Origin: Bacteroidota bacterium
GTDB taxonomy: Bacteria > Bacteroidota > Bacteroidia > Bacteroidales > Prolixibacteraceae
Assembly (NCBI GenBank): GCA_030698405.1
Contig: JAUYMU010000060.1
Span: forward strand, 1-64,000
Length of the DNA: 64,000 nt
Reading direction: 5' to 3'
Shown here: positions 8,326 through 24,063 of the stretch, piece by piece
Position numbering within the stretch: position 1 is the first letter of the stretch
Layout of the letters: every line of letters begins with the position of its first letter
Translations under genes and position numbers: made by a program
Notes under the pieces: model-generated
Seen by the model: the letters and a program-made list of their open reading frames with translations, nothing else
What the model was told of the DNA's origin: nothing
The model's database searches: none

Positions 8326-8922
8326 TTGGCCAAAGAAATTACCAGCGAAGAACTCTACATTGTAAAGAAGATGATCGAAGGAGATGTTGACTCCTTCAAA
8401 TACTTCTTCGACAGGTATTACGACGACCTGTGCAATTTTGTGCATATCTATCTTCACGATCAGGCCTTGTCAGAAGAAATCGTTCAGGATATTTTTGTCT
8501 ATTTCTGGGAAAACAAGGAAAAACTGCAAATCAACACTTCAGTAAAATCATTTTTGTTTTCGGCTTCCAAATTTAAAAGCCTGAACCTTCTGCGCGATAC
8601 CAAAACACAAAAGAGAATTGTTGAAAAAATCGGCAAAACCGAACCGCTGATTACTTCGGAAGAAGAAGATTCGTACATCGACACCAATGAATTTAAAAAG
8701 ATACTGGATGCTGCGGTTGATCAGCTTGCCCCTAAATGCAGGGAAATATTTTTGCTGAGCAAATTTGAAGATCTCAGCAACAGGGAAATCGCTGAAAAAC
8801 TTGGCATCTCTGTCAAAACTGTTGAAAACCAGATGACCATTGCCTTGAAAAAACTTCGCGAGTACCTGTTGCCATTCAGGGGAAAAATATTCCTCCTCTT
8901 CCTTTATCATTTTTTGTCGTAG
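8326..8922 (+). CDS. ECF sigma-70 factor, FecI-like
   Basis: This 198-residue sigma factor has region 2 (about 8-75, EELYIVKKMIEGDVDSFKYF and the WENKEKL helix) and region 4 (about 125-180, DQLAPKCREIFLLSKFEDLS then NREIAEKLGISVKTVENQM). The start is taken as TTG at 8326 because it restores the conserved opening of region 2. The first ATG, 15 codons in, would remove part of it. It heads an operon-like series with a FecR anti-sigma factor and a SusC that carries an STN domain. It should direct RNA polymerase to the SusC/SusD genes when the outer-membrane receptor is loaded. Confidence 0.92.
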   Translation: MAKEITSEELYIVKKMIEGDVDSFKYFFDRYYDDLCNFVHIYLHDQALSEEIVQDIFVYFWENKEKLQINTSVKSFLFSASKFKSLNLLRDTKTQKRIVEKIGKTEPLITSEEEDSYIDTNEFKKILDAAVDQLAPKCREIFLLSKFEDLSNREIAEKLGISVKTVENQMTIALKKLREYLLPFRGKIFLLFLYHFLS

Positions 8923-9326
8923 CAAACAGCCACGGATAAAGGATTTCAGTATAGAAATTTTCATTTTTCAAAACCTTATTTGTCAAAGAAACCTTAGTAG
9001 TAATGGTTCGTGAATCTGAATGGGACCTTATTACCTTATTGATTTTCTCATGCATAAATAAGGTTAAAACAAGGGTGATCTATGTTTACTACTAAGGTTG
9101 CTTAAATAGAAATAAGGTTTTTTTAGCAAAGGATTTCCTCGTTTGAAATTATACTTTTTGGTCAGTAAAAATTCTTACCCATACCAAACATGACAAAGCC
9201 TTATTTTTCAACTATTGATTCGTATTAGAAATTTCAGTGGATTAAAAAATTCTCCTGATTTTTTTAAATTTCTTTTGGGGGTATTTCTACTTTTAAGTTA
9301 CTTATTCACGAAAAGCAAATAAAACA
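8923..9326. other. Sigma/anti-sigma intergenic region
   Basis: No gene is seen in this 404-bp gap. The first part is the foldback element. The rest is AT-rich with a conspicuous TTTTGGGGGTATTTCTACTT run about 40 bp before the FecR start, which may be part of the fecR leader. Confidence 0.5.
8972..9119. repeat. 148-bp foldback (MITE-like) element with AACCTTATTT ends
   Basis: The left arm (8972-9003) runs AACCTTATTTGTC to CCTTAGTAGTAA. The right arm (9086-9119) runs TTACTACTAAGG to AAATAAGGTT and is its imperfect complement over about 32 bp. A second inner AACCTTATT/AATAAGGTT pair is nested inside. It sits in the sigma/anti-sigma gap and could be a small non-autonomous mobile element or a regulatory foldback. 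Confidence 0.65.
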
Positions 9327-10304
9327 ATGAACGAGACACCCTGGGAACAGATCCAAAATAAGCTTCGGAATCCGAATGAGCCTGAAGAATACTCACTCAA
9401 AAACTGGTTGAAGGAGGATCAGGAGAACAAAACTGTTTTGGACGACCTGAAAGTAATCTATTCCATCTCCGGAAATGTACCCGAGTCATTTGTTCCGCAA
9501 AAAGAACTGGCCTGGCAAAAAGTAATGAAACGGATATCCATCAGAAAACAGCAACCAAAAATTATCAGGTTTATGCTTCGCGTTGCTGCATCAATTTTAC
9601 TGATTGCACTGGGTGTTGGTAGTACCTTTTACCTGCAAAACAAAATGGCCAATCCTTCCTTTACTGAAGTATATTCACCTTACGGACACAAAACCCGGGT
9701 AATACTTCCCGATGGCTCAATGGTTTGGTTGAACGGTGACACTAAATTAAAGTACAATTCAGATTTTTCGGATGCCAGAAATGTGGAACTAACCGGGGAG
9801 GCTTTGTTCGAGGTAACTAAAAATCCACGTCAGCTATTTACCGTAAACGCTGAAAAACTAAGGCTCGAAGTGTATGGAACGACCTTTAATGTAAAATCTT
9901 ATCCTGAGGACCTTATTTCTGAAGTTGCGCTGGTGGAAGGTAGCGTTGGACTTTTCCGCGACAAACAGTTGCTCAAAAAAATGGTTCCCGGTGAAGTAAT
10001 TTCGTACAATTCAGGCGAAAACAAATTCAGCGCTATTCAGGGAAACATCGGACAAATAACCTCCTGGAGTGCAGACGAACTGGTCATTGAAAATGAAACA
10101 TTCGAAGAGGTGACCAAATACCTGGAGCGTTGGTATGGAGTGGAAATAACGCTTGACAAATCGATTCAATTAAATAACCGGTTAAGCTTTAAAGTCAAGA
10201 CAGAAAGCCTGATGGAACTGCTTTCCATTATCAGTCGCATTACACCTGTGACTTATGAAATAAACGGCAAACAAGTAAAAATATCAATGCCAATAAAAAA
10301 ATAA
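9327..10304 (+). CDS. FecR-family anti-sigma factor
   Basis: The protein has 325 residues. An N-terminal cytoplasmic helical region (1-80) binds the sigma factor, one transmembrane helix spans about 84-104, and a periplasmic FecR domain (about 112-205, TRVILPDGSMVWLNGDTKL and LTGEALFEV) follows. A DUF4974 domain closes the protein (about 248-320, NETFEEVTKYLERWYGVEI). DUF4974 resembles the STN fold and is typical of Bacteroidota FecR proteins. It should hold the sigma factor inactive until the STN domain of the downstream SusC contacts the periplasmic part. Confidence 0.94.
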   Translation: MNETPWEQIQNKLRNPNEPEEYSLKNWLKEDQENKTVLDDLKVIYSISGNVPESFVPQKELAWQKVMKRISIRKQQPKIIRFMLRVAASILLIALGVGSTFYLQNKMANPSFTEVYSPYGHKTRVILPDGSMVWLNGDTKLKYNSDFSDARNVELTGEALFEVTKNPRQLFTVNAEKLRLEVYGTTFNVKSYPEDLISEVALVEGSVGLFRDKQLLKKMVPGEVISYNSGENKFSAIQGNIGQITSWSADELVIENETFEEVTKYLERWYGVEITLDKSIQLNNRLSFKVKTESLMELLSIISRITPVTYEINGKQVKISMPIKK

Positions 10305-10451
10305 AACGCCAATGGGTTAAAAACAAAAAGGTTTGCCGCTAACGACAAACCTTCTAATAGCAAATCAATTTATATTAATCGCAGATTTCACAAGGTTAAA
10401 AGCGCCAACTCGATGGCCTCGTGGAAAATGCAAAAAACATGAGACAAATTT

Positions 10452-13400
10452 ATGAAAAAAAAATTAATTGCAGGAAGAGAACCTCAAAGGTTTTCGCCCT
10501 GGCTAAAGCGACTTCTGATTATGAAAATGCTTGTAATTCTGCTTCTTGTAGTAGGCCTAACGTCGAGTTATGCTGAATCGGATGCTCAAACGGCCAAAGT
10601 GAACCTAAAGCTGAAAAGCGCTACGGTCAAAGATGTGATCCAGGAAATTGAGCGGCAAACCGACCTATCGTTCATGTACGACAACAATGTTTTCAAAGTC
10701 GATCGACCTGTTTCTATCAGTGTTGAAAACGCTACGGTCAAATCGGTGGTCGAAAAACTTATTTCGGGCGAAAACCTGAAATACGAAATGGTGAACCGCT
10801 ATATTGTGATTACATCGAACAACACTCCTTCCGCTTTTTCGCAACAGCAACAATCCGTTTCCGGTAAAGTCACCGACTCAACAGGAGCTTCGTTGCCCGG
10901 GGTTTCGGTGGTGGTAAAAGGTACAACCAATGGAACTATTACCGATGCCAACGGAAATTATTCTCTTTCGAATGTTCCTGAAAATGGAACTTTACAGTTC
11001 TCGTTTGTTGGGATGAAGACTCAGGAAGTTGCAGCGGAAGGTAAACCAACTATTAATGTGACTCTTGCCGATGAAACAATTGGAATTGAAGAAGTTGTGG
11101 CAATTGGCTACGGTTCATCCAGGAAAAAAGATTTGGTTGGGTCGGTTGCTTCGGTAGAAGCCAGCAAAATTAATAGTCAGACAGTGCAAAATGTCACTCA
11201 GGCCTTGCAGGGTAAAGTTGCCGGGCTTCAAATAACCAACAATGGAACTCCGGGAAGCAGTCCTCAGGTTCGGCTTAGAGGTTTGGGTACCGTAACAGAT
11301 GGTTCAGGCCCCTTATATATAGTAGATGAAGTTATTGTACCAAATATCTCTTTCTTGGCACCCGGCGATATAGAAAATGTAACAGTTTTAAAGGATGCAT
11401 CGTCGGCTGCCATTTATGGAGTTCGTGCTGCCGGTGGTGTAATTTTAATTACAACTAAGAAAGGTACTGATTCCAAACCCACTGTTTCATTTAACACCTA
11501 TATAGGTATAAAAAAAGCCGCGCATTTGGTTGATATAGCTAATGGGCCGGAATATATTCAAATGTATAATGAAGCTCTTCAGTACAGGGGACTTACTTCC
11601 GGTCAATTAGATCCTGCAAAGTATTCTTCCCATAATTATTACGATGACATTCTTAATGATAACATTGTGACCAATTCGCAGGACCTGACCATTCTTGGGG
11701 GAACAAGCTCAGCAAAGTATAGTATTGGATTTAGTCATTTGAAGGATGACGGTTTGGTAAAAGATGATAATTATTCCAGAATTGGATTCAGGGCCAAATA
11801 TGACGTTTCGATCAATGACAAACTCCGGGTTGGATTTTCAACTATATTATCATCTGCGAAATCTAATCCGCAAGCTAATTCTATGTCAGCAGTACAAAGT
11901 GTATTGCCTATTTTTCAACCAAAGGATGCGGCTGGAAACTGGACTGATCCGACATCCATTAAAAATGTCATAAATTTAGCTGCTGCTCAATATTATAATA
12001 AAAATACTTTTCAAACATCCCTGAATGCTATTTTGAACGGATATGCAGAACTCGATCTTTTAAAAAACTTTACTTTTAAAAGCAGTATTTCCCTAAATCC
12101 TACCGAAGTAGATAATATCAAATATTCTCCTCTTTATAAAGTTTCTGCTTATCAATCACAGCAACAAAATATTCTTACCAAAACCCGGGGCCAAAATTTA
12201 AATATCAATTGGGATAATACGGTAACTTATTCCATAATAATTGCTGAAAATCACCACTTTAAACTACTTGGTGGTATGTCTTACCAGGAGCAACAATACA
12301 ACAGCCTGAATGCAACTGCCAGCGGACTTCAGGATCTGCCCGAAATTAGTTCCAGTTATCTGTTTTTGAGCTACCCTGGAAGAACTGACAAATATACAAC
12401 TAGCAGTTCAGATGGAGGTGGTAAAACAGTAGCCACATCATATTTTGGCCGTGTTAACTATGATTATAAAGGCAAATATTTATTTAACGCTACATTGAGA
12501 AATGATATTTCAACCAATTTCCCAAAAAACAACCGTAGCGCTATTTTCCCGTCCGTAGGTGGTGCATGGATAGTTTCTTCTGAGGAATTTATGAAAAAAT
12601 CAAAAATTGATTTCCTGAAAGTTCGTGCCAGTTGGGGTTTAATTGGCAATGGAATAATTCCGCCAAACCTTTATGTGCCGGCACTCTATACTAGTAATTA
12701 TAGTGCAGTTATTTTTGGCCCAAATCAAAACAATGGAACTACTGCAGATGTATCAACCATTGCTACTATCAACCAATTGGCTAATCCAAATTTAAAATGG
12801 GAAACTGTTAGCGAATTTGATGCGGGTGTTGATTTGAGATTATCCCAAAACCGTCTTTCTGTAACAGCAGATTATTATAATCGCGATACCAGAGACGCTA
12901 TTTTCCCAATCAGTGCTCTTCCCAGTTCAGGACTAAATACCAGTGGAGTTTGGGGAAACAATGCTACGATCAACAATTCTGGTATAGAAATTACATTAGG
13001 ATGGGATGATCATAAAGGCGATTTTAGTTATAGCTTGAATGGTAATTTTTCCTACAACCAAAATAAAGTAACAGCGCTTAGCGCTGCCAGTGCTGCTGGG
13101 ATATACGGAAAAGCTTCTGGTTATAGCGCTACTTATACTTATAGTACCCTTGGCCATCCTATTGGGGAAATATTTGGTCTTCAGTCAATAGGGGTTTTCC
13201 AAAATCAGAACCAAATAAATAGTACGCCCCATGTATCAGGTGCTCTTCCAGGTGATTTAATATTTGAAGACCTTAACAAAGATGGTAATATTGATGATAG
13301 GGACAGAACTTTCTTAGGCAATCCTAATCCTCCTTTCTATTATGGATTTGATGCTTCCATTGAATACAAAGGATTCGATTTAGGCATTGCGATACAAGGC

Positions 13401-13805
13401 GTTGCTGGTAATAAAATAGTAAATGCTGTAGATATCGAAAGGTTCGGAGGAGAAAACTATACAAAACGTTTTTTTGATAACAGGTGGCATGGCGAGGGTA
13501 CTTCTAATACATTCCCGTCTGCTGTGTTAGCCAATACCACTCAAAATAGTTCATTTTTTGTAGAGAGTGGCAGCTATCTCAGGTTAAAGAACGTTCAACT
13601 TGGTTATACATTAAATGTAAACATGCTTTCTAAGATGGGCATCAAAAAACTGAGATTATATGTAACTGGTGAAAACATTCACACGTTCACGAAATATTCT
13701 GGTACATCACCGGAAGTTACTGGAGGACCCATATTTGGTGGTGTTAATTACTCAACTTATCCATTGTCCTCTTTATATAGTTTTGGTATGAATCTAAACT
13801 TCTAA
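10452..13805 (+). CDS. SusC/RagA TonB-linked outer membrane transporter with STN domain
   Basis: The protein has 1117 residues. A signal segment at about 20-40 is followed by an STN signalling domain (about 50-120, VNLKLKSATVKDVIQEIERQ), a CarboxypepD-regulatory-like domain (about 137-210, SGKVTDSTGASLPGVSVVVK), a TonB plug (about 212-340, VVAIGYGSSRKKDLVGSV) and a large 22-strand barrel to the C-terminus. The STN domain indicates trans-envelope signalling through the FecR/FecI pair just upstream. With SusD it forms the lidded outer-membrane importer for an oligosaccharide or nucleoside-like ligand. SusD follows 12 bp downstream. Confidence 0.96.
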   Translation: MKKKLIAGREPQRFSPWLKRLLIMKMLVILLLVVGLTSSYAESDAQTAKVNLKLKSATVKDVIQEIERQTDLSFMYDNNVFKVDRPVSISVENATVKSVVEKLISGENLKYEMVNRYIVITSNNTPSAFSQQQQSVSGKVTDSTGASLPGVSVVVKGTTNGTITDANGNYSLSNVPENGTLQFSFVGMKTQEVAAEGKPTINVTLADETIGIEEVVAIGYGSSRKKDLVGSVASVEASKINSQTVQNVTQALQGKVAGLQITNNGTPGSSPQVRLRGLGTVTDGSGPLYIVDEVIVPNISFLAPGDIENVTVLKDASSAAIYGVRAAGGVILITTKKGTDSKPTVSFNTYIGIKKAAHLVDIANGPEYIQMYNEALQYRGLTSGQLDPAKYSSHNYYDDILNDNIVTNSQDLTILGGTSSAKYSIGFSHLKDDGLVKDDNYSRIGFRAKYDVSINDKLRVGFSTILSSAKSNPQANSMSAVQSVLPIFQPKDAAGNWTDPTSIKNVINLAAAQYYNKNTFQTSLNAILNGYAELDLLKNFTFKSSISLNPTEVDNIKYSPLYKVSAYQSQQQNILTKTRGQNLNINWDNTVTYSIIIAENHHFKLLGGMSYQEQQYNSLNATASGLQDLPEISSSYLFLSYPGRTDKYTTSSSDGGGKTVATSYFGRVNYDYKGKYLFNATLRNDISTNFPKNNRSAIFPSVGGAWIVSSEEFMKKSKIDFLKVRASWGLIGNGIIPPNLYVPALYTSNYSAVIFGPNQNNGTTADVSTIATINQLANPNLKWETVSEFDAGVDLRLSQNRLSVTADYYNRDTRDAIFPISALPSSGLNTSGVWGNNATINNSGIEITLGWDDHKGDFSYSLNGNFSYNQNKVTALSAASAAGIYGKASGYSATYTYSTLGHPIGEIFGLQSIGVFQNQNQINSTPHVSGALPGDLIFEDLNKDGNIDDRDRTFLGNPNPPFYYGFDASIEYKGFDLGIAIQGVAGNKIVNAVDIERFGGENYTKRFFDNRWHGEGTSNTFPSAVLANTTQNSSFFVESGSYLRLKNVQLGYTLNVNMLSKMGIKKLRLYVTGENIHTFTKYSGTSPEVTGGPIFGGVNYSTYPLSSLYSFGMNLNF

Positions 13806-13817
13806 AAATTGCTTAAA

Positions 13818-15389
13818 ATGAAAAATAATATAATTAAAATATTAGCAATTCCCTTGTTGGGAATCATGGCATTGTCTTGTAGTGAAAAGCTTGACTTTGC
13901 ACCATACAACCAAAAACCGCCAGTTCAATTTTTTCAAAATGCAGACGATGCACAAAAAGCTGTAAATGCTTGTTATGGCGGCTTAACTGGTTGGGATTTT
14001 TTTGATCCTTCTACTTTTGGGGTTTCTGAATTGGCTTCCGGTAATACGGTTAAAGGTGGTGCAGCCAGTGACCAGGTAGTAGTATATCAATTTTCAAATT
14101 TCACAAGCACTTCTACTCATATAAATACAGGAAATAATTGGAGGGGGAGATACGGGGTAATTAATTTTTGTAATCAGGCTATTACCAATATTCCAAATAT
14201 TACTATGGATGAAACAGCTAAAAAATCTTTAATTGCAGAAGCTAAATTTATCAGGGCATGGTTGTATTTTGATCTGGCTAAAACATTTGGAGAAGTAGTT
14301 ATTTATGATGGTCTTCCAAAAGACGGGAACTATAATTTACCTAAATCATCTTTAGCAGATGTTTATAAATTTATTGAAAGCGATTTGGAATATACTGTTG
14401 CTAATGGTAGAACAGCAGCTTGGGACATAAACAATAAAGGTCGGGTTACTTCTAAGGCAGGGTTGGCCCTTTTGGCAAAAGTAAAGATGTATGAAGCCAG
14501 CGGAGCCAATTACACAGATGATGGAAAAGCTATTAACGGAAGGACCTGGACTGATGTAAAAACTACAACAGATGCTGTAATTAGTAGTGGCTTTTATCGC
14601 CTGTTTACAGACAGGGGCGATAGTAGCTTCTTTTATCTCTTCAGGCTTCCATACGAAAATTGTGATGAGTCAATATTTGAGATGCAAAACGGAAGTGTCA
14701 ATATTAGTTATTATGGAACCAACCATAGCTCTGCATGCCAATACCAATGGGCTACTAATTTGAATGGATGGGGATTTAATGCTCCCAGTGATAAACTAAT
14801 CACAGATTGGGCGGCCCGAACAGACGATACCATACGGTTCAGGCAATCTGTTGCTTTCCAGGGTTTAGTTTTACCTGATGGAGATGTTGTTGCTCCAAAT
14901 GGGGTATTTCAGGCAGGAACAGGATCTGTAGCTGCTAATCCAAACGCAACAGGAAATGCGAGGTGCCGGTTTAATTTTAAAGCGTATCAATCAAGGCTTG
15001 ATGACAAAGGTTTTGGTGGTTGGCAACGGTTAATTGAACAAAACCTAAGATTATTCAGATATGCTGATGTATTACTTATTGATGCTGAAGCTGAATTTAA
15101 TCTTGGAAATTTACAGGAAGCAGTTAATTCCATTAATTTAGTTCGGGCACGCGTCAAAGAAACCCCATTAACGACTGGTAATATTTCATTACAAAAAATA
15201 TGGGATGAACGTCGGTTTGAATTGGCATTCGAGAATGATCACTTCTTTGATTTAGTGCGTACTGGGCAGGCAGCAACGGTATTAGCTCCTAACGGGTTTA
15301 AAAAACCCAAAAATAATTTCTATCCAATTCCTCAGACCCAAATAGACATCTCTGCAGGAGTATTAAAACAAAACAAAAATTGGGAATGA
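13818..15389 (+). CDS. SusD/RagB-family nutrient-binding lipoprotein
   Basis: This surface lipoprotein has 523 residues and a lipobox ending LGIMALSC (lipidated Cys at residue 21). ATG at 13818 is preferred over a TTG three codons upstream. The family signatures are present: an early FQNADDAQKAVNACYGGLTGW, the TPR-like IAEAKFIRAWLYFDLAKTFGE helix pair and the C-terminal RLFRYADVLLIDAEA and IWDERRFELAFENDHFFDLVR motifs. It caps SusC and binds the substrate at the cell surface. Confidence 0.95.
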   Translation: MKNNIIKILAIPLLGIMALSCSEKLDFAPYNQKPPVQFFQNADDAQKAVNACYGGLTGWDFFDPSTFGVSELASGNTVKGGAASDQVVVYQFSNFTSTSTHINTGNNWRGRYGVINFCNQAITNIPNITMDETAKKSLIAEAKFIRAWLYFDLAKTFGEVVIYDGLPKDGNYNLPKSSLADVYKFIESDLEYTVANGRTAAWDINNKGRVTSKAGLALLAKVKMYEASGANYTDDGKAINGRTWTDVKTTTDAVISSGFYRLFTDRGDSSFFYLFRLPYENCDESIFEMQNGSVNISYYGTNHSSACQYQWATNLNGWGFNAPSDKLITDWAARTDDTIRFRQSVAFQGLVLPDGDVVAPNGVFQAGTGSVAANPNATGNARCRFNFKAYQSRLDDKGFGGWQRLIEQNLRLFRYADVLLIDAEAEFNLGNLQEAVNSINLVRARVKETPLTTGNISLQKIWDERRFELAFENDHFFDLVRTGQAATVLAPNGFKKPKNNFYPIPQTQIDISAGVLKQNKNWE

Positions 15390-15406
15390 TTTAAATTCCA
15401 TTCAAC

Positions 15407-15445
15407 AAAATCTTTTTGTGGTATTACAGCCACAAAAAGATTTTT
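15407..15445 (+). terminator. Strong hairpin between susD and the GH127 gene
   Basis: AAAATCTTTTTGTGG (15407-15421) pairs perfectly with CCACAAAAAGATTTT (15430-15444) around an 8-nt loop, followed by T. It should stop or attenuate transcription after susD, or protect the 3' end of the susCD message, so that transporter genes are expressed above the enzymes. Confidence 0.8.
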
Positions 15446-15483
15446 AAGACCACTTCAAATAAGAAAATAATTAAATCACTTTC

Positions 15484-18156
15484 ATGAAATATATTTTTTC
15501 TCAAAAATTAATAAGGTATTACCTATTCGTATTTTTTTCGTTAATCATTTTTAAGACCGCACAGGCGCAATTAGTTGAATTGCCCAAAGTATGGAAGTTT
15601 ATGTTAGGTGATAATATGGATTGGGCTGGGCAATCATTTAATGATAATGGTTGGGGCAATAAACAATTAGGCACAAGCTGGTCTGCAACAGGCATGAAAG
15701 ACAATGTTTATGCATGGTATAGAATTAAAATAGTTATTCCTTCAAGTATGAAAAGTATAGCCGAAAAAGGGAAAGGGATAAAACTTAATCTTGGAAAGAT
15801 AGATGATGTTGATCAAACATTTTTCAATGGTAAACTAATTGGACAAACAGGTTCATTGCCCCCTAACTATGAAAGTAAGTCAGATGCGGAACGGGTTTAT
15901 ATTATTTCAGAAAATGAAGTTCAATGGGATAAGGAAAATGTAATTGCAGTCCGGGTTTTTAGTTTGGATATTGGATGGATTGGTATGTATCAGGGACCAT
16001 ATAGTTATGGATCAATCACGTGGGCGGATTATGTTTCAGTTCAACAATCCATTACCGAGACCGATCATTATGGATTTACCACCAATATTAAGTTTGCCAA
16101 CAAAAGTAATAATGCATTTAATGGGACAGTGAAATATTGGATAGCTGATAAGACCAATAAAGAATTATTTACTGAAACGAAATCGGTAGAAGTTAAGCCG
16201 GAAAAAGGTTCTGAGAATATAATATCCTTCTCAAATTATCAACCCACAAACGAAGATATTTTTAAAGTTGGATATCAGGTTACAGAAAATAACAGTTCGG
16301 TTACCGTAAAAAATGAGCAGGTTTATTTAGCCAATAAACAAGTTGAAATTAAAGTTGCCGGTGAACCAGAACCAGTTGTAGCCAATAAAATTAATGATGC
16401 CTTTACTTCCATTCCATTTCAGAATCAAATATTACAAGGGTATCTGGGGAAACGCTTAACGCAAAACCTGGAAGAGCGTCTTTTAAAAGTTGATGAGAAC
16501 GGATTGATGGATGGATATTTACAAAGACCAGGTAATCATCCCTGGGTTGGCGAGCATGTAGGTAAATATTTGGAAGCTGCCTGTAATGTCTGGAAAAACA
16601 CACATGATCCCGCACTAAAAAAACAGATGGATCGTATGATGTATGTATTGATTAACACGCAATTGCAGGATGGTTACCTTGGAACCTACTCTCCAGCTGA
16701 TCGTTGGACAAGTTGGGATGTGTGGTCGCATAAATATAATTTGTACGGATTGCTTGCGTATTATACGACAACCGGTTACCAGCCTGCCCTGGAAGCATGC
16801 AAAAAAATGGGGGATTTGCTATGCACTACTTTTGGGAATAACCCTGGGCAGCTTGATATTATTTTGGCTGGAGAACATGTGGGAATGGCCGCAACCAGTG
16901 TTCTGGATCCAATGGTCGAATTATACAGGTACACCGGTGAAAAAAAGTACCTGGATTTTTGTTATTATATCCTTGAGGCATGGGAGCAACCTAATGGTCC
17001 CAAAATTATTAGCTCATTATTATCAACAGGTAAGGTCAATAAGGTGGCGAACAGGAAAGCCTATGAAATGCTCTCGAATTTGGTTGGATTAATCAAATTA
17101 TACCGTGTTACGGGTAATGATAAATTTTTAAATCCGATTTTAATTGCATGGCAGGATATTGTGACAAATAGACTTTATATTACTGGAACCTCCAGTTCAT
17201 CTGAACATTTTCAAGGTGATGATATATTGCCTGCAGCAGATAAAGACCAAATTGGTGAAGGGTGTGTGACGACCACCTGGATTCAGTTAAATCAGAATTT
17301 ATTAGCGGTTACCGGCGAATTAAAATATGTGGAGCAAATTGAAAAAACAATATACAATCATTTATTGGGAGCTGAAAATCCACAGACCGGATGTGTAAGT
17401 TATTTTACTCCAATGATGGGTAAAAAAATATATACTTGTGGTATCTTTTGTTGTACATCTAGTATTCCCCGTGGAATAGCATTGATCCCATACTTTACAT
17501 TCGGAAATCTAAATAATATTCCGACCTTAATGTTGTATGAACCTGCAACCTATAAAGAATATATTATAATCACCGATCACAAAAACATAAACTTATCCCT
17601 TCAAATTGAAAGTAGTTTTCCTGGAAATGGTGATGCTATGATAACAGTTAAAACTTCGGAGGCTGCATCTTTCCCAATTGCATTAAGAGTCCCAAGCTGG
17701 TGTAGTTCATTTACTGCAACCGTTGGAGGTAAAGCATATAAAGGCATAGCAAATCAATATTTAATGATCGAACGCGAATGGAAATCAGGCGATAAAATTA
17801 AGGTATCTTTTCAAATGCCTGTTCAAATTCTGGATGGTGGTAAAAGTTATCCGGGTCAGATTGCATTTCAACGGGGGCCACAGGTTTTAGCAATTGATGA
17901 TTCTTTAAATACAGAATTCCTGAAAAATCATCAACTGGAATCATCTGAAAAACTGTCTGTTGAAAACCCTGAAGTTAAAAGTAATGCTGATTTATTACCG
18001 AAACAATGGATTGGGAAGCAGGCTTATTCGGTAAGTATAATTGATGAAAAGAAGAATGGAGCGAAACAACATTTGATACTGGTTCCCTTTGCAGATGCAA
18101 GTCAAACCGGGGGAGCTGTAAAAGTATGGATGCCGCTGAGTATAGCTAAGAATTAG
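15484..18156 (+). CDS. GH127/GH146-type glycosidase (beta-L-arabinofuranosidase family, DUF1680)
   Basis: The protein has 890 residues. A signal peptide is followed by a galactose-binding-like domain (about 28-170, VWKFMLGDNMDWAGQSFND), an Ig-like domain (about 185-280) and an alpha/alpha-barrel GH127 domain (about 310-700) with a C-terminal beta domain. The Zn-thiolate catalytic set of the family can be seen: E592-G-C594 in GEGCVTTTW and adjacent C656-C657 in FCCTSSIPRG, the second cluster holding the nucleophile cysteine. The enzyme should release terminal beta-L-arabinofuranosyl or a similar furanosyl residue in the periplasm. In this PUL, next to ribokinase, another pentofuranoside such as a riboside is conceivable, but that is inference. 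Confidence 0.88.
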   Translation: MKYIFSQKLIRYYLFVFFSLIIFKTAQAQLVELPKVWKFMLGDNMDWAGQSFNDNGWGNKQLGTSWSATGMKDNVYAWYRIKIVIPSSMKSIAEKGKGIKLNLGKIDDVDQTFFNGKLIGQTGSLPPNYESKSDAERVYIISENEVQWDKENVIAVRVFSLDIGWIGMYQGPYSYGSITWADYVSVQQSITETDHYGFTTNIKFANKSNNAFNGTVKYWIADKTNKELFTETKSVEVKPEKGSENIISFSNYQPTNEDIFKVGYQVTENNSSVTVKNEQVYLANKQVEIKVAGEPEPVVANKINDAFTSIPFQNQILQGYLGKRLTQNLEERLLKVDENGLMDGYLQRPGNHPWVGEHVGKYLEAACNVWKNTHDPALKKQMDRMMYVLINTQLQDGYLGTYSPADRWTSWDVWSHKYNLYGLLAYYTTTGYQPALEACKKMGDLLCTTFGNNPGQLDIILAGEHVGMAATSVLDPMVELYRYTGEKKYLDFCYYILEAWEQPNGPKIISSLLSTGKVNKVANRKAYEMLSNLVGLIKLYRVTGNDKFLNPILIAWQDIVTNRLYITGTSSSSEHFQGDDILPAADKDQIGEGCVTTTWIQLNQNLLAVTGELKYVEQIEKTIYNHLLGAENPQTGCVSYFTPMMGKKIYTCGIFCCTSSIPRGIALIPYFTFGNLNNIPTLMLYEPATYKEYIIITDHKNINLSLQIESSFPGNGDAMITVKTSEAASFPIALRVPSWCSSFTATVGGKAYKGIANQYLMIEREWKSGDKIKVSFQMPVQILDGGKSYPGQIAFQRGPQVLAIDDSLNTEFLKNHQLESSEKLSVENPEVKSNADLLPKQWIGKQAYSVSIIDEKKNGAKQHLILVPFADASQTGGAVKVWMPLSIAKN

Positions 18157-18221
18157 AAAATTTTCAGGAAAGCCTGATATGAAAATATTATCATTCAAAT
18201 AATTTAAATGAAAAAAAGATA

Positions 18222-19124
18222 ATGAAAAAAATAATCGTTATTGGCAGCTCTAATACCGATATGGTGATCAAAACAAAGAATTTTCCTGCACCTGGCGAAA
18301 CCATATTGGGTGGAAAATTCTTAATGAATTCCGGTGGTAAAGGTGCTAATCAGGCTGTAGCTGCGGCACGATTGGGGGGGACAGTTACTTTTGTCGGTAA
18401 AATTGGTGATGATATTTTCGGTAAACAGGCAGTTCAACAACTGGAAAATGAGGGTATCAATGTAAACTTTGTGGTCGTCGATCCTGAAAACCCGAGTGGT
18501 GTAGCTCTGATTATTGTCGATCGGGAAGGCGAAAACTCAATCGTTGTGGCTCCGGGATCCAACGGAACACTTAGTCCGGCCGATTTTGATAAAGCAATAG
18601 TTCAACTCAATGAATCGGAATATATACTGATGCAGCTCGAAATACCTATTCTGACGGTAGAACACATTGCCCGAATAGCAGTTGAAAAAAGGAAAAAAGT
18701 GGTTTTGAATCCTGCCCCGGCGACCGAACTTTCTGATAAACTACTAAAAAATCTGTATATCATTACTCCAAACGAAACAGAAGCAGAGTTGCTCACCGGA
18801 GTAAAAGTCACCGATGAACAATCGGCTTTGAAAGCAGCAACTATTCTTCACGACAAAGGTGTTGAAATCGTAATCATAACAATGGGTGCTGCCGGTGCTT
18901 TTCTGTTGGTAAACGGAAAGTCTGAAATAATCACAGCGCTTAAAGTGCAGGCTATTGATACCACTGCCGCCGGAGATACTTTCAACGGAGCTTTGGTAGT
19001 AGCTTTATCCGAAGGAAAAACTATACAGGAATCCATTGCCTTTGCCAATAAAGCCGCATCCATTTCGGTTACTCGTATCGGAGCACAATCATCTGTTCCA
19101 TTTCGGAAAGAAATATTAAATTGA
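18222..19124 (+). CDS. rbsK: Ribokinase
   Basis: This 300-residue PfkB-family kinase phosphorylates D-ribose to ribose 5-phosphate with ATP. The N-terminal substrate motif is typical of RbsK (NTDMVIKTKNFPAPGETI, then NSGGKGANQAVAAARLGG). The C-terminal PfkB signature DTTAAGDTFNGALVVAL supplies the anion hole and catalytic aspartate (D252). It lies in the PUL between two exported enzymes and is itself cytoplasmic, which points to ribose as a released sugar. Confidence 0.92.
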   Translation: MKKIIVIGSSNTDMVIKTKNFPAPGETILGGKFLMNSGGKGANQAVAAARLGGTVTFVGKIGDDIFGKQAVQQLENEGINVNFVVVDPENPSGVALIIVDREGENSIVVAPGSNGTLSPADFDKAIVQLNESEYILMQLEIPILTVEHIARIAVEKRKKVVLNPAPATELSDKLLKNLYIITPNETEAELLTGVKVTDEQSALKAATILHDKGVEIVIITMGAAGAFLLVNGKSEIITALKVQAIDTTAAGDTFNGALVVALSEGKTIQESIAFANKAASISVTRIGAQSSVPFRKEILN

Positions 19125-19149
19125 AATATTAACAAATAAATCCAATACA

Positions 19150-20775
19150 ATGAGAGCGAAACTGTCCATTTTTATAATGCTATTTTGTGTGTTAGCAATT
19201 ACTTCATGCAAAACCGAAAAATCTGATACACGAACTATTTCTACTGAAGTCCTGAAAGATAAAATAGCCGGGGGCTGGGCTGGAAAAATGATTGGGGTTA
19301 CATACGGTGCTCCAACAGAATTTAAGGCTCAGGGAAATACCTTTGAAGATTCCATAAAATGGGTTCCTGCAGATGTTAAAGGTTCTATCTGGCAGGACGA
19401 TATCTATGTTCAGCTAACTTTCATGATGACCATGGACCAATATGGAATTGATGCACCGGCGAAAAAATTTCAGGAATTGTTTGCAAAGGCAGGTTATGGC
19501 TTATGGCATGCCAATCTTCAGGGCCGCAAAAATTATTTCGACAGTATTTTTCCTCCACAATCCGGTCACCCCGACTATAACCTTCACGCTGATGATATTG
19601 ATTTTCAGATTGAAGCTGATTACATTGGTTTCATGTGCCCCGGAATGCCTCAGACTGCCAATAAAATTGCAGATAAAATTGGTCATATTATGAATTATGG
19701 TGATGGTGTTTATGGTGGCGTTTTCGTTGCCGCACTTTATGCCGAGGCATATTTTGAAAACGACATACCCAAAATAATCAATAAAGCATTGGAGTCCCTT
19801 CCGGTAGAAAGTGATTATTCTAAAATTGTTAAAGATGTAATTCTTTTGCATCAGCAATATCCTGATGATTGGCGCGCAGCCTGGGCTGAGCTGGAAGCAA
19901 AATGGGGAAAAGTTCACATTTGTGATGCGGGTACTACCTTTAATATTGACGCGAAACTAAACGGTGCCTATATTGTGATGGGCTTGCTGTATGGCGATGG
20001 TGATCCTGCAAAAACCATGGAGATATCAACCCGTTGCGGACAGGATTCGGATTGTAATCCTTCCAACGCTATGGCACTTTTAGGCGTGATCAAAGGGTTG
20101 AGCGGATTACCTGCTGAATATCAGGAGGCAGTAAAATCAATTGGTGATTCTGTGTTCATAAATACTACCTATTCATTCAATAAGGCAGTTGATAAAACCT
20201 TGGAATATGCTCAGAAACTGGCGGTTGAAAATGGTGGTGAAACTACGGAAAATGAGTTGAAAATTAAAGTTCAACAACCTCTTCCTTTTGCTCTTGAAGT
20301 TGCTTTTCCCAAGTTGATTTTTGATAAAAAAGTAAATGTGTTTGCAAATGAAGGTTGGGAGTTGAAAGGCAATTGGGCCAGCTTCACTTATTTCCATCCA
20401 TGGGCTAAAAAAGAAATTAAAAATCAGGCCAGATTCAGCGGAACTGCTGGTGATGAAATCAGTTTTACCTTTGAAGGAACCGGAGTTTCAATTGTTGGAA
20501 ACTGGTTTAAAGATGGTGGAAAAGCAGATGTTTTTGTGGATGGCCAGTTTAAAAGAAGCATCGACTGTTATTTTAATTATGCAACCCAGCAAATCGAGAA
20601 CATGAATTTGTATCACATTACCAATCTTCCGGAGGGAAAACATACAGTCAGTTTAGTTGTAAAAGGAGAAAAACGGCCTGAATCGGTTGCTTTTAATGTG
20701 TACATCTCTGAAGCAGTAGTTTTTAAGACTGCAGATAAAATTAATGAGACCTTTAAGTTTTCTTTTCAGAAATAA
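19150..20775 (+). CDS. ADP-ribosylglycohydrolase-family lipoprotein
   Basis: The protein has 541 residues with a lipobox (LAITSC, Cys at 20), so it is envelope-anchored. Residues about 35-360 form an ADP-ribosylglycohydrolase-like helical domain with GGWAGKMIGVTYGAPTE, the metal-binding pair D83-D84 in WQDDIYVQ and the GQDSDCNPSNAMALLG motif (D299, D301) that replaces the classical D-x-D. A beta-sandwich domain (about 400-540, FEGTGVSIVGNWFKDGGK) looks carbohydrate-binding. Known members cleave N- or O-ribosyl bonds with Mg2+. An exported copy beside ribokinase suggests release of ribose from ADP-ribosyl or ribosyl compounds, as proposed for the rus locus of Bacteroides. Confidence 0.85.
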   Translation: MRAKLSIFIMLFCVLAITSCKTEKSDTRTISTEVLKDKIAGGWAGKMIGVTYGAPTEFKAQGNTFEDSIKWVPADVKGSIWQDDIYVQLTFMMTMDQYGIDAPAKKFQELFAKAGYGLWHANLQGRKNYFDSIFPPQSGHPDYNLHADDIDFQIEADYIGFMCPGMPQTANKIADKIGHIMNYGDGVYGGVFVAALYAEAYFENDIPKIINKALESLPVESDYSKIVKDVILLHQQYPDDWRAAWAELEAKWGKVHICDAGTTFNIDAKLNGAYIVMGLLYGDGDPAKTMEISTRCGQDSDCNPSNAMALLGVIKGLSGLPAEYQEAVKSIGDSVFINTTYSFNKAVDKTLEYAQKLAVENGGETTENELKIKVQQPLPFALEVAFPKLIFDKKVNVFANEGWELKGNWASFTYFHPWAKKEIKNQARFSGTAGDEISFTFEGTGVSIVGNWFKDGGKADVFVDGQFKRSIDCYFNYATQQIENMNLYHITNLPEGKHTVSLVVKGEKRPESVAFNVYISEAVVFKTADKINETFKFSFQK

Positions 20776-20804
20776 TTTGTGTCTTTTAATAATGTGACAA
20801 AACC

Positions 20805-21800
20805 ATGTATATAGTTAGTACTTATTTATTCGCAGTAGTTCTTTGTGTCATTACGATGTTGTGTTGGGGCTCCTGGGCCAATACACAGAAACTTGCTCAG
20901 AAATCGTGGCGCTTCGAACTATTTTATTGGGATTATGTGATAGGAATCCTCCTGATGTCGCTTGTTTTCTCCTTTACCCTGGGAAGTACAGGTGTCCTTG
21001 GCCGCGGTTTTATTGAAGACCTTAGACAGGCCGAAATGAGCAACATTGGAAATGCACTACTTGGAGGAATCATTTTTAATGCTGCCAACATTTTGGTTGC
21101 TGCCGCTATTTCAATTGCTGGAATGTCGGTGGCTTTTCCAATAGGCATCGGCATTGCCTTGGTGCTGGGTGTGATTGTTAATTACATGGCAAGTCCGCAA
21201 GGAAACGCATCGTGGCTGTTTGCCGGTGTTGCTCTGATTACCATTGCCATTGTGATTGATGCTATAGCTTACCGGAAAAAGGCATCCCAATCACATAAAG
21301 TTCCGACCAAAGGGATTGTTTTGTCGGTAGTCGGAGGCGTTCTGATGGCCTTGTTTTACCGGTTTGTAGCCAGTTCCATGGTCAGTAATTTTGAACAACC
21401 CGATGCCGGATTTTTAACCCCTTACACTGCGGTATTTATATTTTCAATCGGAATTCTGATCAGTAATTTTATTTTCAATACTATTCTGATGAAAAAACCT
21501 TTTGAAGGCGCCCCTGTAACATACTCTCAATATTTTAATGGCAGTTTGAAGGAACATTTTACCGGTATTCTGGGTGGAATAATCTGGTGTATTGGAATGA
21601 CTTTAAGTATAATTGCTGCCGGGAAAGCTGGGTTTGCCATTTCGTACGGATTGGGTCAGGGTGCGACTTTGGTGGCTGCTTTGTGGGGTGTGTTTATATG
21701 GAAAGAATTTAAAGGAACTGCAGGGGTAAAAGGATGGTTAGTGGCGATGTTTATTCTCTTTGTGTTGGGTCTTATTTCCATTATTTATGCTGGTCAATGA
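20805..21800 (+). CDS. GRP-family sugar permease (DMT superfamily, ribose/glucose type)
   Basis: This inner-membrane protein has 331 residues and about ten hydrophobic helices. The opening (CVITMLCWGSWANTQKLAQ, then FELFYWDYVIGILL) and the repeated glycine-rich helices (GGIIFNAANILVAAAISIAG, GIGIALVLG) match the glucose/ribose porter branch. It closes the PUL and should carry the released pentose into the cytoplasm, where ribokinase acts. Confidence 0.88.
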   Translation: MYIVSTYLFAVVLCVITMLCWGSWANTQKLAQKSWRFELFYWDYVIGILLMSLVFSFTLGSTGVLGRGFIEDLRQAEMSNIGNALLGGIIFNAANILVAAAISIAGMSVAFPIGIGIALVLGVIVNYMASPQGNASWLFAGVALITIAIVIDAIAYRKKASQSHKVPTKGIVLSVVGGVLMALFYRFVASSMVSNFEQPDAGFLTPYTAVFIFSIGILISNFIFNTILMKKPFEGAPVTYSQYFNGSLKEHFTGILGGIIWCIGMTLSIIAAGKAGFAISYGLGQGATLVAALWGVFIWKEFKGTAGVKGWLVAMFILFVLGLISIIYAGQ

Positions 21801-22199: not shown

Positions 22200-22691
22200 A
22201 TGGCAAAAACTTCAGAAACAGGTCACGCTAAAAATGTGGCCAATTTTGCGCAACTGGTAGCAATCTGCACATCGTATGGCGCAATTTATCAACCAAGTAA
22301 TTCCGTTATTCAACTTCAGGGCATGGGTGGCCTCTTGGTTCAGGCGAAAGACTGCCTGACTTCCATCAACAGTGCTGAAGGCATTTATTCCAATGCACTT
22401 TCGAAGCGTGGAATGGTATTTAATCCCTTTCGAAAGCTGGTAACCCGTATCGGGAATGCCTTAAAATCATCGGGAGTTTCCAAACAAACGAAAGATCAGG
22501 TTGCAGCAATTATCCGCAAGTTGCAGGGACGCCGCGCCACCCCAAAAATTTCGGAGGAGGAAAAGCAGGCTGCCCTGGCCGCCGGAAAGGAAATCGTTGA
22601 AGTTTCATCGTCACAAATGAGCATCGACAACCAGTTGCCAATATATTATCTTCTTATTGAATCAACCAATCACCAGTTCATGGCAGTTTAG
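22200..22691 (+). pseudogene. Conserved Bacteroidota hypothetical protein, C-terminally truncated
   Basis: The frame encodes 163 residues. The first ~140 (MAKTSETGHAKNVANFAQLV to ISSSQMS-like VSSSQMSIDN) match my memory of a conserved helical family of roughly 240 residues, with the signatures NPFRKLVTRIGNALK and KLQGRRATP. After IDN the frame drifts into unrelated residues and stops. In a neighbouring frame (about 22630-22745) a NQP...SLITHFNNMEKRKQNN segment looks like the missing continuation. This suggests one or more indels and loss of function of the C-terminal half. The protein's function is unknown. Confidence 0.5.
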
Positions 22692-22769: not shown

Positions 22770-22777
22770 TACATTTG
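22770..22777 (+). promoter_or_regulatory. Candidate -7 box of the ATPase gene
   Basis: TACATTTG matches the Bacteroidota -7 consensus TAnnTTTG. It lies 17 bp before ATG 22795 and supports that start. No good -33 box is visible, so confidence is limited. Confidence 0.35.
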
Positions 22778-22794
22778 TGATAAAATATTCGTTT

Positions 22795-24063
22795 ATGGAC
22801 GAAACAATTAAAGCGTTAAGGAAATATAATTTCTGGGATAGTAATACCATTGATTTAGGGTATTTAAGAACCGACTATACCGAAAAAATTACTGATTACA
22901 TTGGTAACCGTCTGATAAAAGTTCTTGTTGGCCAACGTCGGGCCGGAAAGAGCTTTATTCTTCGTCAGATCGTAAAACAGCTGATCGAAAAAGGCATTTC
23001 ACCTAATAATACACTGATTATCAACAAAGAATTTTCCGAGTTCGATTTTCTTTCTTCCAACAAGGAGCTTGACGATTTAATAAAGCTGTATAAATCAGAA
23101 CTTAAACCATTCGGGAAGATTTATATTTTTATTGATGAAATACAAAATATATCTGGCTGGGAACGCGTAGTAAATTCATATTCACAAGATTATACCGATG
23201 ATTATGAATTATTTATCAGCGGTTCCAATTCCAAAATGTTGGCGAATGAACTTGCTACCTTGCTTTCTGGCAGATATGTCAAATTCGAGATATTTCCTTT
23301 TAGCTATATGGAGTATCTGGGTATAACTGATGGGCAGAAATCAAAACAAACTTATATTAAATATATGGAGAGCGGAGGGTTGCCTGAACTTTTTATGCTC
23401 TCTAAACAAGAAACAAAGCGGAATTATGTTTCTGCAATTAAAGACACTGTCTTGTTACGCGATATTATTCAACGTCACAATATAAGAGAACCCAGACTCC
23501 TGGAAGATATTTTTGTTTTTCTGGTTAATAATGCTTCCAATTTGATTTCTGTCAGCAGTATTTTTAAGTATTACAAGGGATTGGGCAGAAAAACGAGTTA
23601 CGACATCATTGCTAACTATATAAGCTATATTGAGGAAGCTTTTTTAATTCACCGCTGTGAGCGTTTTAATATCAGGGGTAAAGAGATTATTGCCGGCAAT
23701 GTGAAATTTTATGCCAATGATTTATCCTTCAAAAACTATCTGTTTCCTGGATTTGGGTATGGATTTGGCTATCTGGTTGAAAACCTGATTTATCTTGAAC
23801 TTAGACGAGCCGGATATGAAGTATATACAGGCAGCATTAAGGATAAAGAGGTGGATTTTGTGGCCAGTAAAGCAGACAGGATGATCTATGTTCAATGTGC
23901 ATACCTTTTAGCCGAACCGGAGACTATTTTGCGTGAATACCTGTCGCTTGAGTCAATCAGTGACAATTATGAAAAGTATATCGTATCACTTGATGATTTG
24001 ACATTTCCATCAAATAAAGGAATCCGACATATTCAGGCCTGGAATTTTGGAGAACAACTTTAG
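22795..24063 (+). CDS. AAA ATPase with DUF4143 domain
   Basis: This cytoplasmic protein has 422 residues from ATG 22795. A GTG six codons upstream falls inside a promoter-like box and is rejected. The Walker A is GQRRAGKS (46-53), Walker B is IYIFIDEIQN (D114, E115) and there is a sensor-like ISGSNSKML. The C-terminal DUF4143 region contains a nuclease-like motif (YEVYTGSIKDKEVDFVASK), resembling the D...E-x-K core of restriction-like folds. Such proteins are widespread and often mobile, with poorly known function. The gene stands alone between the PUL and the arabinosidase genes. Confidence 0.88.
   Translation: MDETIKALRKYNFWDSNTIDLGYLRTDYTEKITDYIGNRLIKVLVGQRRAGKSFILRQIVKQLIEKGISPNNTLIINKEFSEFDFLSSNKELDDLIKLYKSELKPFGKIYIFIDEIQNISGWERVVNSYSQDYTDDYELFISGSNSKMLANELATLLSGRYVKFEIFPFSYMEYLGITDGQKSKQTYIKYMESGGLPELFMLSKQETKRNYVSAIKDTVLLRDIIQRHNIREPRLLEDIFVFLVNNASNLISVSSIFKYYKGLGRKTSYDIIANYISYIEEAFLIHRCERFNIRGKEIIAGNVKFYANDLSFKNYLFPGFGYGFGYLVENLIYLELRRAGYEVYTGSIKDKEVDFVASKADRMIYVQCAYLLAEPETILREYLSLESISDNYEKYIVSLDDLTFPSNKGIRHIQAWNFGEQL

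Follow-up and report, generated by a model that had tools for sequence, protein, structure and literature searches.

A probable rus-type ribose acquisition locus in a Prolixibacteraceae genome, apparently rebuilt from a duplicated ribose cassette and carrying a GH127-family enzyme

Ribose use in Bacteroides thetaiotaomicron reportedly depends on rus, a ribose-utilisation polysaccharide utilisation locus (PUL) spanning BT2803-BT2809, which Glowacki et al. (2020) are said to have described together with many rus variants. We report here on a rus-like locus located on the (+) strand at positions 8326-21800 of contig JAUYMU010000060.1 (assembly GCA_030698405.1, a Bacteroidota bacterium of the Prolixibacteraceae); the window that we analysed is the first 64 kb of this contig, and the variant that it carries may already be listed in the original rus paper. 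The B. thetaiotaomicron locus reportedly contains an enzyme of family PF03747, the annotation seen for that locus being DUF4969. A direct search of the open-licence literature for papers on PULs with nucleoside hydrolase and ribose, or on rus terms, gave none. In an excerpt of PMC10434189, the B. thetaiotaomicron row is given as ribokinase, TonB-dependent receptor, SusD, DUF4969 protein, nucleoside hydrolase, and a permease of the drug/metabolite transporter (DMT) superfamily; the RusR regulon (BT2803-2809) and RusT are described in an extract of PMC12596196, and the rus system is also treated in an extract of PMC12548429.

We consider it probable that 8326-21800 serves to acquire ribose in the manner of rus, and that it arose when the ribose cassette of the genus was duplicated and rebuilt as a PUL under sigma/anti-sigma control. 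Its eight genes agree in position and family with what a sequence-only reading had proposed to occur together: an extracytoplasmic function (ECF) sigma factor of FecI type (8326..8922; TIGR02985, 168.6 bits against a cut-off of 126.4), a FecR-type anti-sigma factor (9327..10304; PF04773, PF16344), an STN-containing SusC TonB-dependent transporter (10452..13805; TIGR04056, 851 bits; STN, PF07660), a SusD-type lipoprotein (13809..15389; PF07980, PF14322), an enzyme of glycoside hydrolase (GH) family GH127 (15484..18156; PF07944, 183.5 bits; PF20736), the ribokinase RbsK (18222..19124; curated equivalog TIGR02152, 375.6 bits against a cut-off of 299.65), an exported lipoprotein of the ADP-ribosylhydrolase type, hereafter ARH (19150..20775; PF03747, 106 bits), with a C-terminal carbohydrate-binding-like domain, and a RusT-like sugar permease of the DMT superfamily (20805..21800; PF07168, 67.8 bits; PF06800, 34.3 bits). 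The permease had been assigned to the glucose/ribose permease (GRP) family; the assignment holds at the superfamily level, through PF07168 and PF06800, and fails for the RhaT/GlcU profile, where the score of 42.4 is below the cut-off of 319.6. From SusC through the permease, the successive intergenic gaps, taken from the coordinates, are 3, 94, 65, 25, and 29 bp. The N-terminus of ARH, MRAKLSIFIMLFCVLAITSC, reads by eye as a lipoprotein signal. SusC/SusD, the sigma factor of Bacteroidetes type, and the named kin accord with a placement in the Bacteroidota.

SusC/SusD and the ribokinase are common to this locus and the rus PUL of B. thetaiotaomicron, and the DMT-superfamily permease is a candidate counterpart of RusT. 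Compared by gene content, 8326-21800 differs in having no nucleoside hydrolase, in having FecI/FecR for a RusR-like gene, and in its additional GH127 gene; on present evidence it seems to work in the way a rus locus does, yet with the nucleoside hydrolase and a RusR-like gene absent, we name it rus-like rather than counting it among strict rus members. In the pathway that we propose, SusD would bind and STN-SusC would import a ribose-containing glycoside or oligosaccharide, and occupancy of STN-SusC would be signalled via FecR to FecI; in the periplasm, GH127 and the ARH lipoprotein would cleave ribofuranosyl (or similar furanosyl) bonds, the free D-ribose would pass the inner membrane via the DMT permease, and the ribokinase would convert it to ribose 5-phosphate.

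The cassette shares its ancestry with an operon of the genus. We searched the ARH protein in 61 genomes and read 40 stretches around the matches, together with three of the own genome (loci, genomes, and contigs are numbered below with L, G, and C). The operon recovered has the order RbsK-ARH-nucleoside hydrolase-permease; 18 copies were sorted (L006, L040-L051, and L059-L063), with L058 omitted because its contig ends within ARH. Ribokinase is present in 14 of them (absent from L046, L049, and L050; L051 is cut), the permease in 12 (absent from L046, L048, L049, and L050; L059 and L060 are cut), and a divergent RusR-like gene in 7. Of the operon's genes, RbsK, ARH, and the permease recur in 8326-21800, which has neither the nucleoside hydrolase nor the RusR-like gene; conversely, GH127 orthologues and open reading frames (ORFs) of SusC size are missing from the genus-operon stretches fetched. 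Identity to the operon copies is 80-86% for RbsK and 81-87% for the permease, and our ARH is 75-83% identical to that of species with the same ARH subtype. Two ribokinases exceed the TIGR02152 cut-off in the 5.49 Mb of the own genome, the one at 18222-19124 and a second (G000:C113) belonging to the ordinary operon L006. In the ribokinase tree, 18222-19124 pairs with the ribokinase of L039 inside a clade of genus-operon ribokinases; owing to this nesting, the likeliest origin of the PUL is duplication of the genus cassette, minus the nucleoside hydrolase and plus FecI/FecR, SusCD, and GH127. The own genome would then provide a natural example of a single ribose cassette retained in two copies with different control.

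The ARH of L006 belongs to a different subtype, 40% identical to the ARH at 19150-20775 over 552 columns; two such subtypes (40-49% identical) fill the same operon slot in different species of the genus (L006, L040-L063). The own genome also has a third rus-like group on G000:C132 (L235, 6399-11041); it comprises short ribokinase (198 aa) and permease (154 aa) ORFs, a DeoC-family aldolase, and a protein of 773 aa that includes a nucleoside-hydrolase domain, and it appears decayed.

The usual partner of ARH in the genus speaks against a ribose PUL built in this way. Indeed, the nucleoside hydrolase directly follows ARH in all 18 sorted operons, a closer tie than that of ARH to ribokinase (14/18), and among the ORFs of at least 110 aa in the window, we found no homologue of it, in line with its absence as first noted from the sequence. 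The tie of ARH to the nucleoside hydrolase would suit a cassette for nucleoside use, with SusC importing nucleosides or RNA fragments and ARH working with a nucleoside hydrolase encoded elsewhere, for which three PF01156 genes above the cut-off are available in the own genome. We nevertheless rank this as the least probable of our explanations and a very doubtful one, as the locus itself has no nucleoside hydrolase and has a GH127 enzyme, a family that to our knowledge does not cleave nucleosides, and as we found neither a nuclease nor a nucleotidase domain among the proteins of the cassette.

A wider survey speaks for the ribose cassette. With the ARH alignment as query, a scan of the genome collection gave at least 583 confirmed relatives, of which the best 80 were kept and all read; these are the most similar loci, not a random sample. 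Within the stretches read, 45 of the 80 have a ribokinase and 44 the permease, with both genes present in 40; SusC was found in 20, and a nucleoside hydrolase (with a widened profile) in 22. If the count is limited to the 53 loci whose flanks each extend 5 kb or more, RbsK and the permease occur together in 29, among which 13 have a nucleoside hydrolase and 6 have SusC; since only 13 of these 29 carry one, the nucleoside hydrolase looks optional in rus-type loci. We also searched the permease in 395 genomes of the class and read 16 loci from 14 genomes other than the own one: a ribokinase lies within three genes in 10, and 9 have a RusR-like gene. ARH was counted in 8 (with weak scores of 102-121 bits in three), SusC in 4 (with a weak score of 26 bits in one), and a nucleoside hydrolase in 3. 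Ribokinase, ARH, and the RusR-like gene are all missing from L236 and L246, although their permease matches are strong, and from L248-L251, where these matches are the four weakest. The rus-type cassette put forward in the sequence-only reading is thereby borne out, RbsK and the permease standing near ARH in 40 of the 80 loci and in most genus operons, and RbsK in 10 of the 16 permease loci. Cassettes with SusCD occur in named genomes of Massilibacteroides, Larkinella, and Olivibacter and in Prevotellaceae metagenome-assembled genomes (MAGs).

Control of these loci follows two patterns. L006 6732-8231 and 23 other sequences represent a protein family of about 500 aa, of which the two members scanned matched nothing in Pfam. 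Its gene occurs in 14 of the 80 named loci, always upstream of, divergent from, and directly adjacent to ribokinase (11) or SusC (3); four of these 14 sequences went into the building of its profile. In the class-level set, it adjoins the ribokinase in 9/9 cases, divergently in 6 and in the same direction in L240, L242, and L244. We regard it as a candidate RusR-type regulator, a name given from position that does not imply equivalence with the RusR of B. thetaiotaomicron. The profile has no match in the window, where FecI/FecR are present instead, as had been proposed for this locus. Sigma/anti-sigma-type control is not unique to 8326-21800, because L145, from a Prolixibacteraceae MAG, presents a row of FecR-SusC-SusD-ARH-RbsK-permease, sharing these six genes with our locus, and shows no GH127 in its stretch. 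The arrangement of 8326-21800 was found in one other genome, G014, among the 61 searched; its locus L039, whose contig begins within SusC, keeps the order SusC-SusD-GH127-RbsK-ARH-permease, which is therefore not a chance arrangement.

The GH127 addition is, to our mind, the part most deserving of test. The enzyme at 15484-18156 has the catalytic and middle domains of the GH127 beta-L-arabinofuranosidases and other GH127 members; it differs from known GH127 enzymes in a long extra N-terminal region of about 300 aa, in the lack of a Glyco_hydro127C match, and in its ribokinase context. Counted on the alignment, E574, E592, C594, C656, and C657 correspond to E322, E338, C340, C417, and C418 of 3wre, and all five are invariant in the ten sequences aligned; we take E574 to be the acid/base and E592, C594, C656, and C657 (Glu-x-Cys/Cys-Cys) to bind zinc. 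Against the aceric acid hydrolase profile, the enzyme scores 132.9 bits for a cut-off of 950. A structure model of this protein was of low confidence (mean predicted local distance difference test [pLDDT] 55.5, five sequences) and was not used.

Orthologues of at least 70% identity were found at five loci among the 61 genomes. Ribokinase and permease accompany GH127 in three of them (8326-21800, G014, and G004), and ARH in three (8326-21800, G014, and G042): RbsK-ARH-permease stands behind GH127 in 8326-21800 and G014, and esterase-RbsK-permease in G004, where the contig ends at the 5' side of GH127; in G001, the contig ends directly behind the orthologue. As a control, we took the next 40 GH127 loci that head the match lists and read them, 24 with stretches of at least 19 kb and the remainder cut by contig ends. 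None of the 40 has a ribokinase or ARH, one (L283) has the permease, and nine have SusC; the loci are related, hence we attach no probability to the contrast of 3/5 with 0/40 for ribokinase, or likewise for ARH. The presence of RbsK and permease beside three of five close orthologues, against no ribokinase at the 40 other loci, ties this GH127 branch to ribose. We found no paper in the open-licence literature joining GH127 with ribokinase, or a ribofuranosidase with a glycoside hydrolase. L283 itself (G029:C17) places a GH127-family gene and a RusT-like permease on one short contig, with no ribokinase in view.

A bolder reading, which we consider somewhat unlikely, is that this GH127 branch was recruited as a D-ribofuranosidase feeding the ribokinase, apparently more than once; on a ribose-containing polysaccharide, it would act with a widespread PF03747 subfamily (DxDCN motif plus carbohydrate-binding-like domain), which would itself be a new ribofuranoside-hydrolase class. 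In favour of the ribose reading in general, the GH127-linked ribokinases do not form one clade: a quick tree needs three changes, two of them forced by its starred branches, and the G004 ribokinase is 44% identical to that at 18222-19124, though the G004 GH127 is 72% identical to ours. Two of the 80 named loci, L142 and L171, contain catalytic GH127 genes; the latter, from Petrimonas, has the order ARH-PHP-RbsK-ARH-GH127-permease-GH127, with GH127s that are 24-29% identical. L114 had appeared as a third, and was rejected, its match being confined to the N-terminal region shared with an AXE1-type esterase. Several results weigh against the ribose reading. Each forced change may be a gain or a loss, so that one of each is possible, and 39 of 500 shuffles gave an equally low change count; this limit of the tree and the contrast with the 40 control loci draw our estimate opposite ways and leave it where it was. 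The GH127 of L142 goes with two ARH genes and no ribokinase or permease in view, that of G042 (L056) lies in a PUL with ARH, GH16, GH27, GH30, and GH3 in which no ribokinase was seen, and relatives of 52% and 49% identity (L095, L096) have no ribokinase, ARH, or permease as neighbours. If the bolder reading is true, zinc-cysteine retaining glycosidases would gain a new specificity; if the locus does serve ribose, ribose scavenging would extend past nucleosides to ribosylated glycans, and the GH127 and DxDCN PF03747 branches would be candidate ribofuranosidases.

The genes around the cassette leave the choice of substrate wide, to the disadvantage of a ribose assignment. Starting 2.4 kb behind the permease are a GH51 arabinofuranosidase (24228-26837) and a GH43 enzyme (26851-29010), families typical of arabinan use, and the closest SusC/SusD kin (60%/67% identity, G038) stand beside GH16 and GH116. 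The GH127 could, then, be an ordinary beta-L-arabinofuranosidase, or have another GH127 activity, in a locus for plant or algal polysaccharide where the ribokinase cassette serves a minor side sugar or hitch-hikes; the G042 PUL described above would agree with this, as would the polyspecificity of GH127, which includes the 3,6-anhydro-D-galactosidases with which Zobellia uses carrageenan (in an extract of PMC5698469). We hold this rival to be rather unlikely. Two ORFs (22200-22691 and 22777-24063) separate the permease from GH51/GH43, which are preceded by an AAA/DUF4143 gene, and in G014, the roughly 6 kb that follow this cassette show no GH51/GH43. In the relatives L202 and L204, GH51 is near other SusC/SusD-type genes, and in L202 it accompanies a standard-architecture GH127 that is 24% identical to ours; moreover, as no ribokinase or ARH lies near any of the 40 control loci, the ribokinase link is particular to this GH127 branch. 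The sequence-only reading had named plain arabinan PULs around the homologues as the finding that would count against it. For the most part, they are not there, with three of the five orthologues beside RbsK and permease, one in the G042 PUL, and one at a contig end; what stands on the arabinan side is the GH51/GH43 pair of the window. In G010, the left flank is the same up to the RNA ligase, after which another FecI/FecR pair stands (35% and 33% identical). Exchange of PULs thus seems to take place here, and because of this, the neighbourhood alone is weak evidence.

The ARH lipoprotein had suggested ADP-ribose as a target, that is, scavenging of ADP-ribose, NAD, or ADP-ribosylated protein by the PF03747 enzyme. 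Its structure model (pLDDT 88.1, 48 sequences) best matches DraG and ARH3, with E values from 5.9e-06 and template modelling (TM) scores by target of 0.52-0.71 among the DraG/ARH matches listed, and the paired aspartates D83 D84 and D299 D301 are kept. However, 126 of the 130 members gathered have Cys directly behind the second metal aspartate (motif D[SA]DCN), at a site where the solved ADP-ribosylhydrolase relatives aligned have Thr or Ser; we presume that the residue following the D-x-D metal motif matters in ARH/DraG enzymes. Weaker matches of the model are CE2/CEX-type esterases and a xylan-binding module, with a length fitting the C-terminal beta domain, and Pfam places CE2_N at residues 427-516, under its cut-off; this part of the protein thus resembles carbohydrate-binding modules. 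An ARH of the own genome (L007, on C17), 67% identical, lies in a glycan PUL with GH27, two GH16 (one fused to GDPD), and GH29, and we found no Nudix, phosphatase, or pyrophosphatase domain in the proteins of the cassette. Taken together, these features turn us away from ADP-ribose, which we judge highly unlikely; from the model and motif, we regard the ARH lipoprotein as a probable furanoside hydrolase of one kind or another rather than an ADP-ribosylhydrolase. Single-sequence searches returned no solved relatives of ARH, the nucleoside hydrolase, or the permease.

Other arrangements of ARH were noted in the loci read. A 588-aa protein of L007 matches nothing in Pfam and has relatives in both L056 and L008. 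In two genomes (L070, L073), three ARH genes cluster beside esterase-type genes and a SusC/SusD-like pair. Apiosidase-like proteins (PF13204) adjoin ARH and the permease in L074, L077, and L115, with a ribokinase in L074 and L077 and, additionally, a DeoC-family aldolase in L074. As for regulatory signals, promoter-like sites (60, against 52.5 in the shuffled background, standard deviation [sd] 6.7) and terminator-like sites (17 against 13.9, sd 3.7) are near background, and tRNA-Asn was the sole match of the Rfam scan. A 13-pair hairpin lies between FecR and SusC, at 10326-10355.

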